Shown: positions 24,605-28,234 of the stretch, piece by piece
Position numbering within the stretch: the first letter of the stretch is position 1
How the letters are laid out: each line of letters starts with the position of its first letter
From: Nonomuraea sp. NBC_00507
Lineage (GTDB): Bacteria > Actinomycetota > Actinomycetes > Streptosporangiales > Streptosporangiaceae
Reading direction: 5' to 3'
Length of the DNA stretch: 64,000 bases
NCBI RefSeq assembly: GCF_036013525.1
Contig: NZ_CP107853.1
Location: forward strand, 1 to 64,000
Made by a program: the position numbers and the translations under genes
Notes under the pieces: generated by a model
What the model was told of the DNA's origin: nothing
The model's input: the letters and a program-made list of their open reading frames with translations, nothing else
The model's database searches: none

Positions 24605-26062
24605 ATGACATTCCTGGACCCCAAGATCTGGACCGGCCTGGTCTTCGACGGCGGCTGGACGGCCTCGCGCGCCGGTGACGCGCCGGTCGTCGAGCCGGCG
24701 ACGGGCAACGAGCTCGGCCGTGCGGGCACGGCCGGCGCCGACGACGTGGCCGCGGCCGCCCTGCGGGCACGCCAGGAGCAGCGGGCGTGGGCGGCCACCC
24801 CATACGAGGAGCGGGCGGCGGTGCTGCGCCGCGCCGGGCGGCTCTTCGAGGAGCACGCGCAGGAGATCCAGGACTGGATCGTCCGCGAGTCCGGCGGGGT
24901 GCCCGGCAAGGCCGCCTTCGAGACGCACGTGGCGGCGCAGGAGTGCTACGAGGCGGCGGCGCTGGCCTCGCAGCCGCTCGGCGAGGTGCTGCCGACCTCG
25001 CGCAAGCGGCTCAGCTTCGCGCGGCGGGTGCCGGTGGGCGTGGTCGGGGTGATCGCGCCGTTCAACTTCCCGCTGATCCTCGGCACCAGGTCGGTGGCTC
25101 CGGCGCTCGCGCTCGGGAACGCGGTCGTCTTCAAGCCGGACCAGCGCACCGCCGTCTGCGGCGGGTTCGCGATCGCCCGCGTCTTCGAGGAGGCGGGGCT
25201 GCCGAGCGGCCTGCTGCACGTGCTGCCCGGCGGCGCCGAGACCGGGCAGGCCCTGGTGACCGACCCGAACATCCCGGTGATCTCCTTCACCGGCTCGAGC
25301 GCGGCCGGGCGCAAGGTCGGGGAGGCGGGGGCGCGCCTGCTCAAGCGGGTGCACCTGGAGCTGGGCGGCAACTCGGCGCTGGTCGTCTTCGACGACGCCG
25401 ACCTCCAGCCGGCCGTGTCCGCCGCCTCGTGGGCGTCGTTCTTCCACCAGGGGCAGATCTGCATGACGGCGGGCCGGCATCTGGTGCACGAATCGGTGGC
25501 GGAGGAGTACGTCGAACGCCTCGCCGCCAAGGCCGACGCCCTGCCGGTCGGCGACCCGGCCACCGGTCAGGTCGCCCTCGGCCCGCTCATCGACCCCGGA
25601 CAGCGGGACCGGGTGCACCGGCTCGTCACCGACAGCGTGTCGGCCGGGGCCAGGCTCGCCGCCGGCGGGACGTACGACCGGCTGTTCTACCGGCCCACCG
25701 TGCTGGCCGGGGTGCCGGCCCACGCGCCGGCGTACGCGGAGGAGGTGTTCGGGCCGGTGGCGCCGGTGATGACGTTCTCCTCGCTGGAGCAGGCGGCGGC
25801 GCTGGCCGCCGACACGGAGTACGGCCTGTCGCTCGGCATCCTCACCCGCGACGTCATGAAGGGGCTGGCGCTGGCCGACCTGGTGCCGACGGGCATCGTG
25901 CACATCAACGACCAGACGGTGGACGACGAGGCCGTGGCACCGTTCGGCGGGGTGGGCGCCTCGGGGACCGGCACGAGGTTCGGCGGGCCCGCCAACGCGG
26001 ACGCCTTCACGGAGACCCAGTGGGTCACCGTACAGGGGGACGTGGCGGCGTACCCCTTCTAG
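24605..26062 (+). CDS. Aldehyde dehydrogenase, benzaldehyde dehydrogenase type
   Basis: 485 residues from ATG 24605, eight bases after GAGGAGG. NAD(P)-linked oxidation of an aldehyde to an acid. Catalytic features are present: oxyanion asparagine in APFNFPLILG, general-base glutamate in HLELGGNSALV and nucleophile cysteine in FFHQGQICMTAGR. The sequence resembles benzaldehyde and vanillin dehydrogenases. Placed just after the decarboxylase, it should oxidise that enzyme's aldehyde product. Its last 405 bp are exactly repeated 1278 bp downstream. Confidence 0.94.
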   Translation: MTFLDPKIWTGLVFDGGWTASRAGDAPVVEPATGNELGRAGTAGADDVAAAALRARQEQRAWAATPYEERAAVLRRAGRLFEEHAQEIQDWIVRESGGVPGKAAFETHVAAQECYEAAALASQPLGEVLPTSRKRLSFARRVPVGVVGVIAPFNFPLILGTRSVAPALALGNAVVFKPDQRTAVCGGFAIARVFEEAGLPSGLLHVLPGGAETGQALVTDPNIPVISFTGSSAAGRKVGEAGARLLKRVHLELGGNSALVVFDDADLQPAVSAASWASFFHQGQICMTAGRHLVHESVAEEYVERLAAKADALPVGDPATGQVALGPLIDPGQRDRVHRLVTDSVSAGARLAAGGTYDRLFYRPTVLAGVPAHAPAYAEEVFGPVAPVMTFSSLEQAAALAADTEYGLSLGILTRDVMKGLALADLVPTGIVHINDQTVDDEAVAPFGGVGASGTGTRFGGPANADAFTETQWVTVQGDVAAYPF

Positions 26063-26137
26063 CGAGACTGCAAGGCGCCGGGGATCTCGGCGCCTTGCAA
26101 TCGTTCACCTTGCTTGGCGTTCTGCGGCCTCCACCAC
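25658..26137 (+). repeat. 480-bp perfect direct repeat, copy 1
   Basis: Covers the last 405 bp of the intact dehydrogenase gene, its terminator hairpin and 33 bp matching the 3' end of folD. Identical by eye to 26936-27415. The pair flank a 798-bp insert with a toxin-antitoxin operon. Confidence 0.97.
26069..26099 (+). terminator. Terminator of the transporter-decarboxylase-dehydrogenase operon
   Basis: A perfect 12-bp stem (TGCAAGGCGCCG against CGGCGCCTTGCA) closes on loop GGGATCT, 7 bp after the dehydrogenase stop. The same hairpin occurs in the second repeat copy, where it also serves folD from the other side. Confidence 0.85.
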
Positions 26138-26197
26138 ATCTAGCGCCACGTAACCAGCGATTCGGTACTTATGGGCAGGCCATCACGAAAGATCGAT

Positions 26198-26213
26198 AGT
26201 ATGCGAGCATACT
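26198..26213 (+). promoter_or_regulatory. 16-bp palindrome, probable toxin-antitoxin operator with -10 box
   Basis: AGTATGC-GA-GCATACT is a perfect inverted repeat with a 2-bp centre, a typical binding site for a small HTH antitoxin. Its right half contains CATACT, a fair -10 element, six bases before GTG 26220, so bound antitoxin would block transcription. Confidence 0.7.
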
Positions 26214-26219
26214 TACGGC

Positions 26220-26600
26220 GTGTATCATGGTGCTGTGACCTATCGCCTGGAGATCGTCATGGAGGTGCGGGACTGGCTGCACCAGCTGCGCCACGCAGAC
26301 CGCGACAGCGCCATCCTGGTCGGCCAGGCGATCACAGCGCTACTCGAAGAAGGGCCAAGCCTCGGAAGACCTCTGGTTGACCGGATCAAGGGCTCAAATC
26401 TGCACAACCTCAAGGAACTCCGTCCGGGCTCTGCCGGGACAACAGAGATAAGGATCCTGTTCATCTTCGACCCGAGCCGGAATGTAGTCCTCCTCGTCGC
26501 CGGCGACAAGGCAGGGCAGTGGTCTTCCTGGTACCGAGAGGCGATTCCATTGGCAGAGGCCCGGTATACGACCTACCTGAAGGAGAAGGAGGAGTCATGA
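26220..26600 (+). CDS. RelE/HigB-type toxin (phage gp49-like, DUF891)
   Basis: 126 residues from GTG 26220; the family start may be GTG 26238 (VTYRLEIV). No RBS precedes either, and a -10-like CATACT six bases before 26220 suggests leaderless translation. The body LHNLKELRPGSAGTTEIRIL and FIFDPSRNVVLLVAGDKAGQ, ending in a basic helix, matches HigB/RelE-fold mRNA-interferase toxins. Its stop overlaps the antitoxin start as ATGA. The toxin-first order is typical of higBA systems. It lies in a 798-bp segment between perfect direct repeats, a sign of acquisition. Confidence 0.88.
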   Translation: MYHGAVTYRLEIVMEVRDWLHQLRHADRDSAILVGQAITALLEEGPSLGRPLVDRIKGSNLHNLKELRPGSAGTTEIRILFIFDPSRNVVLLVAGDKAGQWSSWYREAIPLAEARYTTYLKEKEES

Positions 26601-26923: not shown

Positions 26924-26935
26924 GCGCTGCGCCTT

Positions 26936-27340
26936 GCCGCCGGCGGGACGTACGACCGGCTGTTCTACCGGCCCACCGTGCTGGCCGGGGTGCCGGCCCA
27001 CGCGCCGGCGTACGCGGAGGAGGTGTTCGGGCCGGTGGCGCCGGTGATGACGTTCTCCTCGCTGGAGCAGGCGGCGGCGCTGGCCGCCGACACGGAGTAC
27101 GGCCTGTCGCTCGGCATCCTCACCCGCGACGTCATGAAGGGGCTGGCGCTGGCCGACCTGGTGCCGACGGGCATCGTGCACATCAACGACCAGACGGTGG
27201 ACGACGAGGCCGTGGCACCGTTCGGCGGGGTGGGCGCCTCGGGGACCGGCACGAGGTTCGGCGGGCCCGCCAACGCGGACGCCTTCACGGAGACCCAGTG
27301 GGTCACCGTACAGGGGGACGTGGCGGCGTACCCCTTCTAG
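26936..27340 (+). pseudogene. Duplicated 3' fragment of the aldehyde dehydrogenase gene
   Basis: The last 134 codons of the dehydrogenase and its stop, identical to the intact copy. It lacks the cofactor-binding domain and both catalytic residues, so any product from the internal GTG at 26978 would be inactive. Confidence 0.92.
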
Positions 27341-27346
27341 CGAGAC

Positions 27347-27377
27347 TGCAAGGCGCCGGGGATCTCGGCGCCTTGCA
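27347..27377 (-). terminator. Terminator shared by folD and the duplicated fragment
   Basis: Second copy of the 12-bp stem hairpin, 5 bp beyond the folD stop on the minus strand. Being symmetrical, it can act in both directions. Confidence 0.75.
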
Positions 27378-27382
27378 ATCGT

Positions 27383-28234
27383 TCACCTTGCTTGGCGTTC
27401 TGCGGCCTCCACCACGTTGGAGAGCAGGAGGGCACGGGTCATGGGGCCGACGCCGCCCGGGTTGGGCGTGAGGAAGCCGGCGACCTCCGCCACGTCCGGC
27501 GCCACGTCGCCGGCGATCTTGCCGTCCACCCGGGAGACCCCCACGTCGAGGACGGCCGCGCCGGGCTTGACCATGTCGCGGGTGATCAGGCCGGGCACGC
27601 CCGCCGCCGCCACCACGATGTCCGCGCGGCGCACGTGGCCGGCCAGGTCCTGGGTGCCGGTGTGGCACAGGGTCACGGTGGCGTTTTCGCTGCGGCGGGT
27701 CAGCAGGAGGCCCAGCGAGCGGCCCACCGTGATGCCGCGCCCGACCACGGCCACCTCGGCGCCCTTGATCGGCACGCCGTATTCCTGCAGGAGCAGCACG
27801 ATGCCGTGCGGGGTGCACGGGAGCGGCGCGTCCACCATGTGGACGAGGCGGCCGAGGTTGACCGGGTGGAGGCCGTCGGCGTCCTTGGCCGGGTCCATGC
27901 GCTCCAGCAGGGCCATCGTGTCGAGGTGCTTGGGGAGGGGGAGCTGGACGATGTAGCCGGTGCACTCGGGGGAGGCGTTGAGCTGGTCGATGGCCGCCTC
28001 GACCTCGGCCTGCGTGGCGGTGGCCGGCAGGTCGACGCGGATGGAGGCGATGCCCACCTCGGCGCAGTCACGGTGCTTGCCTGCCACGTAGATCTGGCTG
28101 CCCGGATCGTCGCCCACGAGCACGGTGCCCAGGCCGGGTGTGATGCCGCGGTCCTTGAGCGCGGCCACTCGGGTCGTGAGGTCTGCCTTGATCTTGGCGG
28201 CGGTCGCCTTGCCATCGAGTTTCACTGCGCTCAT
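27383..28234 (-). CDS. folD: Bifunctional methylenetetrahydrofolate dehydrogenase/cyclohydrolase
   Basis: 283 residues. Interconverts methylene-, methenyl- and 10-formyl-tetrahydrofolate with NADP. Signatures: catalytic lysine in QIYVAGKHRDC, PLPKHLD, KDADGLHPVNLGRL, the nucleotide loop VVGRGITVGRSL and the ending TPNPGGVGPMTRALL. Usual family length. The last 10 codons lie inside the 480-bp direct repeat, but the gene itself is intact. It supplies 10-formyl-THF for purine synthesis. Confidence 0.97.
   Translation of the reverse strand: MSAVKLDGKATAAKIKADLTTRVAALKDRGITPGLGTVLVGDDPGSQIYVAGKHRDCAEVGIASIRVDLPATATQAEVEAAIDQLNASPECTGYIVQLPLPKHLDTMALLERMDPAKDADGLHPVNLGRLVHMVDAPLPCTPHGIVLLLQEYGVPIKGAEVAVVGRGITVGRSLGLLLTRRSENATVTLCHTGTQDLAGHVRRADIVVAAAGVPGLITRDMVKPGAAVLDVGVSRVDGKIAGDVAPDVAEVAGFLTPNPGGVGPMTRALLLSNVVEAAERQAR

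Follow-up and report, generated by a model that had tools for sequence, protein, structure and literature searches.

A toxin-antitoxin (TA) operon of about 0.8 kb lies between two identical 480-bp direct repeats in the genome of Nonomuraea sp. NBC_00507 (assembly GCF_036013525.1, contig NZ_CP107853.1, positions 1 to 64,000 of the forward strand; this whole stretch of 64,000 nucleotides is called the window), and its insertion was probably accompanied by duplication of 480 bp of resident target sequence. The two repeat copies, at 25658-26137 and 26936-27415 on the forward strand, were compared base by base and are equal at all 480 positions at an offset of 1278; both are 480 bp long, and the identity ends abruptly on both sides. 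Exact boundaries, open reading frames (ORFs) and a Pfam Aldedh match show that a copy consists of the last 405 bp of an aldehyde dehydrogenase ORF, then a palindrome resembling a terminator, then 33 bp from the 3' end of folD. The dehydrogenase gene (open frame 24605-26062, forward strand) and folD (open frame 27383-28234, reverse strand) are convergent with the insert between them. The dehydrogenase stop lies inside the left copy and the last 33 bp of folD lie in the right copy, so that the dehydrogenase is complete through the left copy and folD through the right; the dehydrogenase part of the right copy is a fragment without a gene start. The palindrome (26066-26102, with a second instance at 27344-27380 in the right copy) is the probable terminator of the dehydrogenase gene. 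The insert (26138-26935, forward strand, 798 bp) has a GC content of 61%, the 480-bp repeat 72% and the window 70%. A preliminary description of the window, made from the letters alone, had reported perfect repeats 1278 bp apart with this gene content, a 798-bp segment with a HigBA-like operon between them, and no broken gene; alignment confirmed the repeats to the base, and the remaining points were borne out by the ORFs and Pfam (PF05973 toxin, HTH antitoxin), the terminator being a probable one read from the palindrome.

The insertion site was compared with that of relatives. A genome of the same species (G046, about 98% identical) carries the dehydrogenase and folD together, with a single copy of the 480 bp and without the insert. 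Sixteen stretches from relatives in the genus (L010-L025, 2-3.7 kb each) were searched with three probes, and the insert was matched in 0/16 (L025 matched the probes only in part), with no second dehydrogenase end or tandem copy in any of the 16. One probe runs unbroken from the dehydrogenase end into folD in L010 to L013, and folD lies within a few hundred bases of the dehydrogenase end in L015, L016 and L017. The uninterrupted dehydrogenase-folD junction that the preliminary description had looked to in related genomes is therefore present, in one copy, in G046 and in other relatives of the genus. These comparisons support the recent insertion of a TA segment whose base composition appears foreign.

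Each copy in the window was then aligned with the single copy of G046. Both differ from it at the same 10 of 480 sites, with every allele common to both copies; the 1500-bp flanks show 28 and 17 differences. Because both copies carry the same 10 differences, the second copy probably derives from the host's own chromosome, and a duplication of host DNA at the window appears likely from this alignment. The lack of any difference between the copies points to resident DNA that was duplicated at insertion or was homogenised later, and later gene conversion could be the source of the identity. The preliminary description had instead proposed that a circle already carrying the 480-bp dehydrogenase-folD stretch was integrated by a single crossover. 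Such a circle (or DNA end) would yield the same final structure, and the reverse reaction would release a circle of 1278 bp. It is not the best reading and is considered improbable: the carried copy must equal this strain although a conspecific copy should differ at about 10 of 480 sites and the two copies differ at none, the duplicate at another locus (L267, below) is likewise host-derived, and a circle with exactly the convergent-gene junction plus a TA operon requires an unexplained earlier capture.

The operon begins with a presumed promoter region of 82 bp (26138-26219, forward strand) between the left junction and the GTG taken as the toxin start. The toxin gene (26220-26600, forward strand) encodes a HigB-like protein of 126 aa in the Gp49/RelE superfamily (Pfam Gp49 PF05973, E 4.1e-18), and the antitoxin gene (26597-26923, forward strand, start ATG) encodes an XRE-type HTH protein of 108 aa (Pfam HTH_37 and HTH_3). 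The toxin gene is first in order, and its stop overlaps the antitoxin start as ATGA; from this overlap the two are presumed to form one operon. The AlphaFold model of the toxin (mean predicted local distance difference test score 88) has as its best PDB match a chain of a Streptococcus pneumoniae TA module (E 5.8e-4), which is the only PDB match under 0.001, with YafQ, YoeB and RelE-type toxins next at weaker E values. A PDB search with a profile of four sequences found no relative. Judged by toxin family, predicted fold and the adjacent DNA-binding antitoxin, the pair is a predicted RelE/HigB-type type II TA system, in which the antitoxin would neutralise the toxin. It resembles known HigBA and RelBE-superfamily modules in its toxin-first operon, ATGA overlap, Gp49 domain and RelE/YoeB-like predicted fold; what sets the window apart is the flanking duplication and not the proteins. 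The toxin was searched against 72,556 plasmid records, with 20 matches at E 1e-20, and against 50,697 phage records, with 3 matches at E 1e-10; all of these matches are <60% identical, and neither collection provided a source reaching 60% identity. No transposase, integrase, recombinase or insertion sequence (IS) was annotated among the insert ORFs (ORF list and Pfam of the two TA genes), and there are no flanking IS copies as in a composite transposon, the repeats being dehydrogenase/folD sequence. Exact inverted words of 8-12 bp between the outer 90 bp of the insert were not found, and fixed ends or terminal inverted repeats were likewise not seen by eye across the loci described below.

Homologous TA loci of Actinomycetes were collected from genome contigs (best 80 of 546 matches), from 394 genomes of the class and from 297 genomes of the family; from the class and family lists, 80 and 60 places were fetched after picking by hand, and partial and contig-edge rows were skipped. 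The 280 loci were reduced to 255 by near-duplicate removal and to 243 by requiring at least 500 bp on both sides, with the window included as L134. A spanning repeat was defined as a direct repeat of at least 40 bp and at least 75% identity that encloses the TA operon, both copies lying no more than 700 bp away. Control windows shifted along the same loci (n=3161, overlapping one another) were put through the identical test. Thresholds were fixed after a first small survey (7/76 against 7/1949, four loci skipped). Spanning direct repeats were found at 41 of the 243 TA loci, including the window, and in 15 of the 3161 controls; in the count of 41, most short-repeat loci (L049, L165, L167, L173 and L285) were taken without individual inspection. 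In the strict class (at least 90% identity and at least 80 bp) the counts are 12/243 and 1/3161, and the single strict control is in L049, which holds a tandem array. Grouping by repeat or flank similarity gave 26 clusters from the 41 loci, or 25 without L255, which was left out of the cluster count as its repeats look by eye like an array of clustered regularly interspaced short palindromic repeats (CRISPR). Fisher p values are 2e-36 for all loci, 2e-13 for the strict class and 2e-20 when 25 clusters replace the 41 loci, and they are only indicative because the control windows overlap. Insert lengths range from 764 to 1459 bp (median 938) and repeat lengths from 43 to 483 bp over the 41 loci, tRNA cases included. 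Strict repeat pairs around an insert of 400-3000 bp were also counted over 1.75 Mb of these loci. They enclose a TA operon in 14 loci and lie elsewhere in only 4, which makes the arrangement more than a matter of chance.

The repeat-flanked loci fall into more than one class. Of the 41 loci, 7 have a transfer RNA (tRNA) located by ARAGORN at a copy of the repeat, namely tRNA-Phe in L122, L126, L129, L303 and L315, tRNA-Thr in L327 and tRNA-Arg in L192. The tRNA-Phe loci probably descend from one ancestral event, and the loci of this class look like classical integrase sites. In L249 both copies (683-748 and 1847-1919) match the transfer-messenger RNA (tmRNA) model below its gathering score with the TA homologue between them, as if the operon were inserted at the tmRNA end. 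Rfam was run on 12 loci that had been read as tRNA-like by eye. Only L192 and L327 (tRNA) and L249 (tmRNA, sub-threshold) match at a copy, L185 and L313 match away from the repeat copies, and no Rfam tRNA match was obtained in L130, L164, L183, L222, L294, L320 or L329; because Rfam gave no tRNA at their copies, the by-eye reading of the non-matching loci is unconfirmed. Integrative elements and prophages enter at the 3' ends of genes or tRNAs, where direct repeats restore the interrupted gene, and the window repeats restore gene ends in the same way. Site-specific integration by a recombinase acting in trans, in which the repeats would be attachment sites at the ends of genes and the TA unit a stripped integrative element, would account for the tRNA loci, whose repeats begin near the anticodon loop (by eye), for the sub-threshold tmRNA match at both copies of L249, and for integrase-like C-terminal fragments seen by eye in L130 and L108. 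An integrative element's own copy normally differs from the host copy. The window insert is without an integrase or other recombinase, and its repeat is a long stretch of the host's own sequence with no divergence over 480 bp. In addition, the duplicate at L207 looks by eye like a gene start, and no common core was seen among the protein-gene cases (by eye only, no motif search). TA-to-repeat distances vary between loci, and common element ends were not seen by eye (no motif search). Attachment-site integration is unlikely as the general cause, being disfavoured for the window and L267 by their host-derived copies, and is retained for the tRNA subset, which it fits better.

The window belongs to a second class, in which the end of a protein gene is duplicated. 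The 3' end of the left gene is duplicated in L057, L110, L246 and L267 and that of the right gene in L264; in L207 the duplicate resembles a gene start (by eye). In L267 a 127-bp run is equal in both copies and departs at 16 sites from the one copy that a TA-free relative has. This tested locus, where the duplicate is host-derived and a relative shows the empty site, favours long target duplication as in the window. The host-derived copies of the window and L267 speak against import of a foreign gene end there; at L057 such an import may apply. The copies of L246 have one mismatch and one internal gap with abrupt ends, and those of L207 differ at 3/100 with abrupt ends; for the empty-site comparison of L246, the genus was represented by its own genome alone. 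The flank order of L308 varies among relatives, and its empty site is not reconstructable. At L264 an 85-bp run is equal in both copies and differs at 9-15 of 85 positions from each of seven relatives without the TA operon, four of which (L365-L368) have the left and right flanks meeting at one copy.

For the window, insertion with long target duplication would proceed as follows. A foreign TA operon would enter between the convergent dehydrogenase and folD, and the 480-bp target would be duplicated, most simply either when a wide staggered break is filled in after capture of a TA fragment or by a backward template switch; end-joining or template-switch capture has roughly an even chance of being the route. 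Of 10 genomes searched for Ku, 8 have it, that of the window among them. Recombination between identical direct repeats tends to delete the intervening DNA. The identical 480-bp repeats should therefore recombine and drop the insert, and a cell in which this happens would lose its supply of antitoxin and be poisoned. A stable toxin would outlast removal of the operon, and repeat-flanked TA inserts should therefore be over-represented among survivors, so that repeat-flanked inserts would survive mainly when they carry an addiction module. Such addiction-based retention falls just short of an even chance. That addiction guards the repeats from collapse, as the preliminary description had suggested, is plausible and fits the concentration of repeats around TA modules. 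The broadest form of the proposal, that solitary TA operons of Actinomycetes are recombinase-free mobile genes captured at breaks with long target duplication, with the repeats kept by addiction, is more doubtful still and is offered tentatively.

Several observations weigh against long target duplication and addiction as the explanation of the wider pattern. The controls are ordinary neighbouring genes and not other recently acquired genes, and strict repeat pairs enclose no TA operon in the 4 loci noted above. A second survey, of 47 usable loci of the PF02604 YefM/Phd antitoxin family under a looser repeat rule, gave spanning repeats in 4/47 loci against 4/117 controls (p 0.23, not significant); in two of its loci, L419 and L427, TA pairs that we take to be yefM-yoeB-like lie between duplicated gene ends, the same structure by eye. 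Some loci have their repeats at tRNA ends, where the usual cause is site-specific integration. The genome with L264 (G628) has no Ku match, and Ku-dependent joining is therefore not needed everywhere. At the L264 site a TA homologue (73-81% identical) is also present in L373, L381 and L382, where only a single copy of the repeat is detectable. Either the second copy of L264 is therefore younger than the TA operon, or the other loci have lost theirs, or homogenisation made the two copies alike, or more than one event struck the site; the pattern weakens a simple one-step insertion with duplication. The copies of L057 are identical only in their 5' part and diverged in their 3' part, a pattern better explained by a foreign gene end or by partial conversion than by simple duplication. 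L264 and L057 do not fit the wider pattern simply; L267 does.

The L264 relatives also bear on the order of events, since a TA homologue beside one copy fits a duplication that followed insertion at that site. For the window, a 480-bp tandem duplication that arose first and received the TA operon later, exactly at the junction, or a duplication after TA insertion, would give the same final structure. This explanation also has little probability: its duplication-first form demands insertion precisely at the junction, and a tandem copy was present in 0/16 related stretches at the window site. An assembly artefact is highly improbable because the 12.89 Mb genome sits in 2 contigs, and comparable structures occur in other assemblies, including contigs of 5.9 Mb (L267) and 7.0 Mb (L207).

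Insertion of the TA operon with long target duplication was compared with known systems. Nobusato et al. (2000) and Furuta et al. (2010) reportedly described how restriction-modification systems insert with target duplications that are long and of variable length. According to PMC3874152, some restriction-modification systems are inserted with long, variable target duplications on the order of 100 bp, and insertions of this kind also appear in PMC3031569 and PMC2749054, the latter stating that in Helicobacter pylori restriction-modification genes are often within or beside long-target-duplication insertions. The window agrees with these in several respects: its insert is absent from a close relative that has one uninterrupted target copy, its flanks duplicate the resident target (as do those of L267 and, with a complicated history, L264), the duplications are long and variable (43-483 bp among the 41 loci), and its insert is without a transposase, IS or terminal inverted repeats. 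It differs in carrying a type II TA operon (about 0.8 kb) in place of a restriction-modification system, in its Actinomycetes hosts and in the length of the duplication, 480 bp being long; in addition, the present survey compared the frequency of such repeats across a TA family with that in control windows. The window insertion therefore works like the restriction-modification kind and is a variant of it because the cargo is a TA operon. A TA operon alone as a strain-variable islet is also exemplified by ccdO157, a chromosomal TA islet in Escherichia coli (PMC2654758), and the accessible part of that source mentions no duplication. No report of long target duplication around TA modules was found in the literature searched (most subscription papers being outside it), and within that literature the wider repeat-around-TA pattern appears to be a so far undescribed variant of an insertion type already known.

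A long-standing question is by what means TA operons reach new chromosomes when no plasmid, phage or transposase carries them. The excess of long direct repeats measured here for one TA family supplies candidate insertion events, some with known empty sites. It also makes directly testable the hypothesis that addiction exerts selection for such insertions and stabilises them, where recombination between their flanks would otherwise remove them. If the broad proposal of recombinase-free mobile TA operons is true, TA movement could be dated by the long flanking duplications that it leaves, and long target duplication would be a signature common to addictive genes (TA and restriction-modification) and not to one enzyme.

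Further observations were made in the surveyed loci and in the window. L110 has a second repeat pair (6715-7727; 171 bp, 92%) beside the TA operon, around a segment of 674 bp that holds another ORF, PNP-oxidase-like by eye, and non-TA cargo can therefore show the same structure. The TA homologue of L255 (917-2495) seems by eye to lie inside the CRISPR-like repeat array, and several nested high-identity repeats surround one TA homologue in L183 (1248-4364). TA homologues in two genomes of the genus directly adjoin YD/RHS-like-repeat genes (L048:2678-4727 and L050:69-5143, by eye). In the window, positions 26124-26161, across the left junction, are 79% identical over 38 bp to 27480-27517, inside folD about 65 bp past the right copy; this is possibly chance or a trace of the joining event. 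A 33-bp tandem repeat occurs three times at 23883-23981 inside a long ORF adjoining the dehydrogenase, and the same stretch is the most divergent from G046, with 21 differences in 23600-23799 and 37 in 23800-23999.

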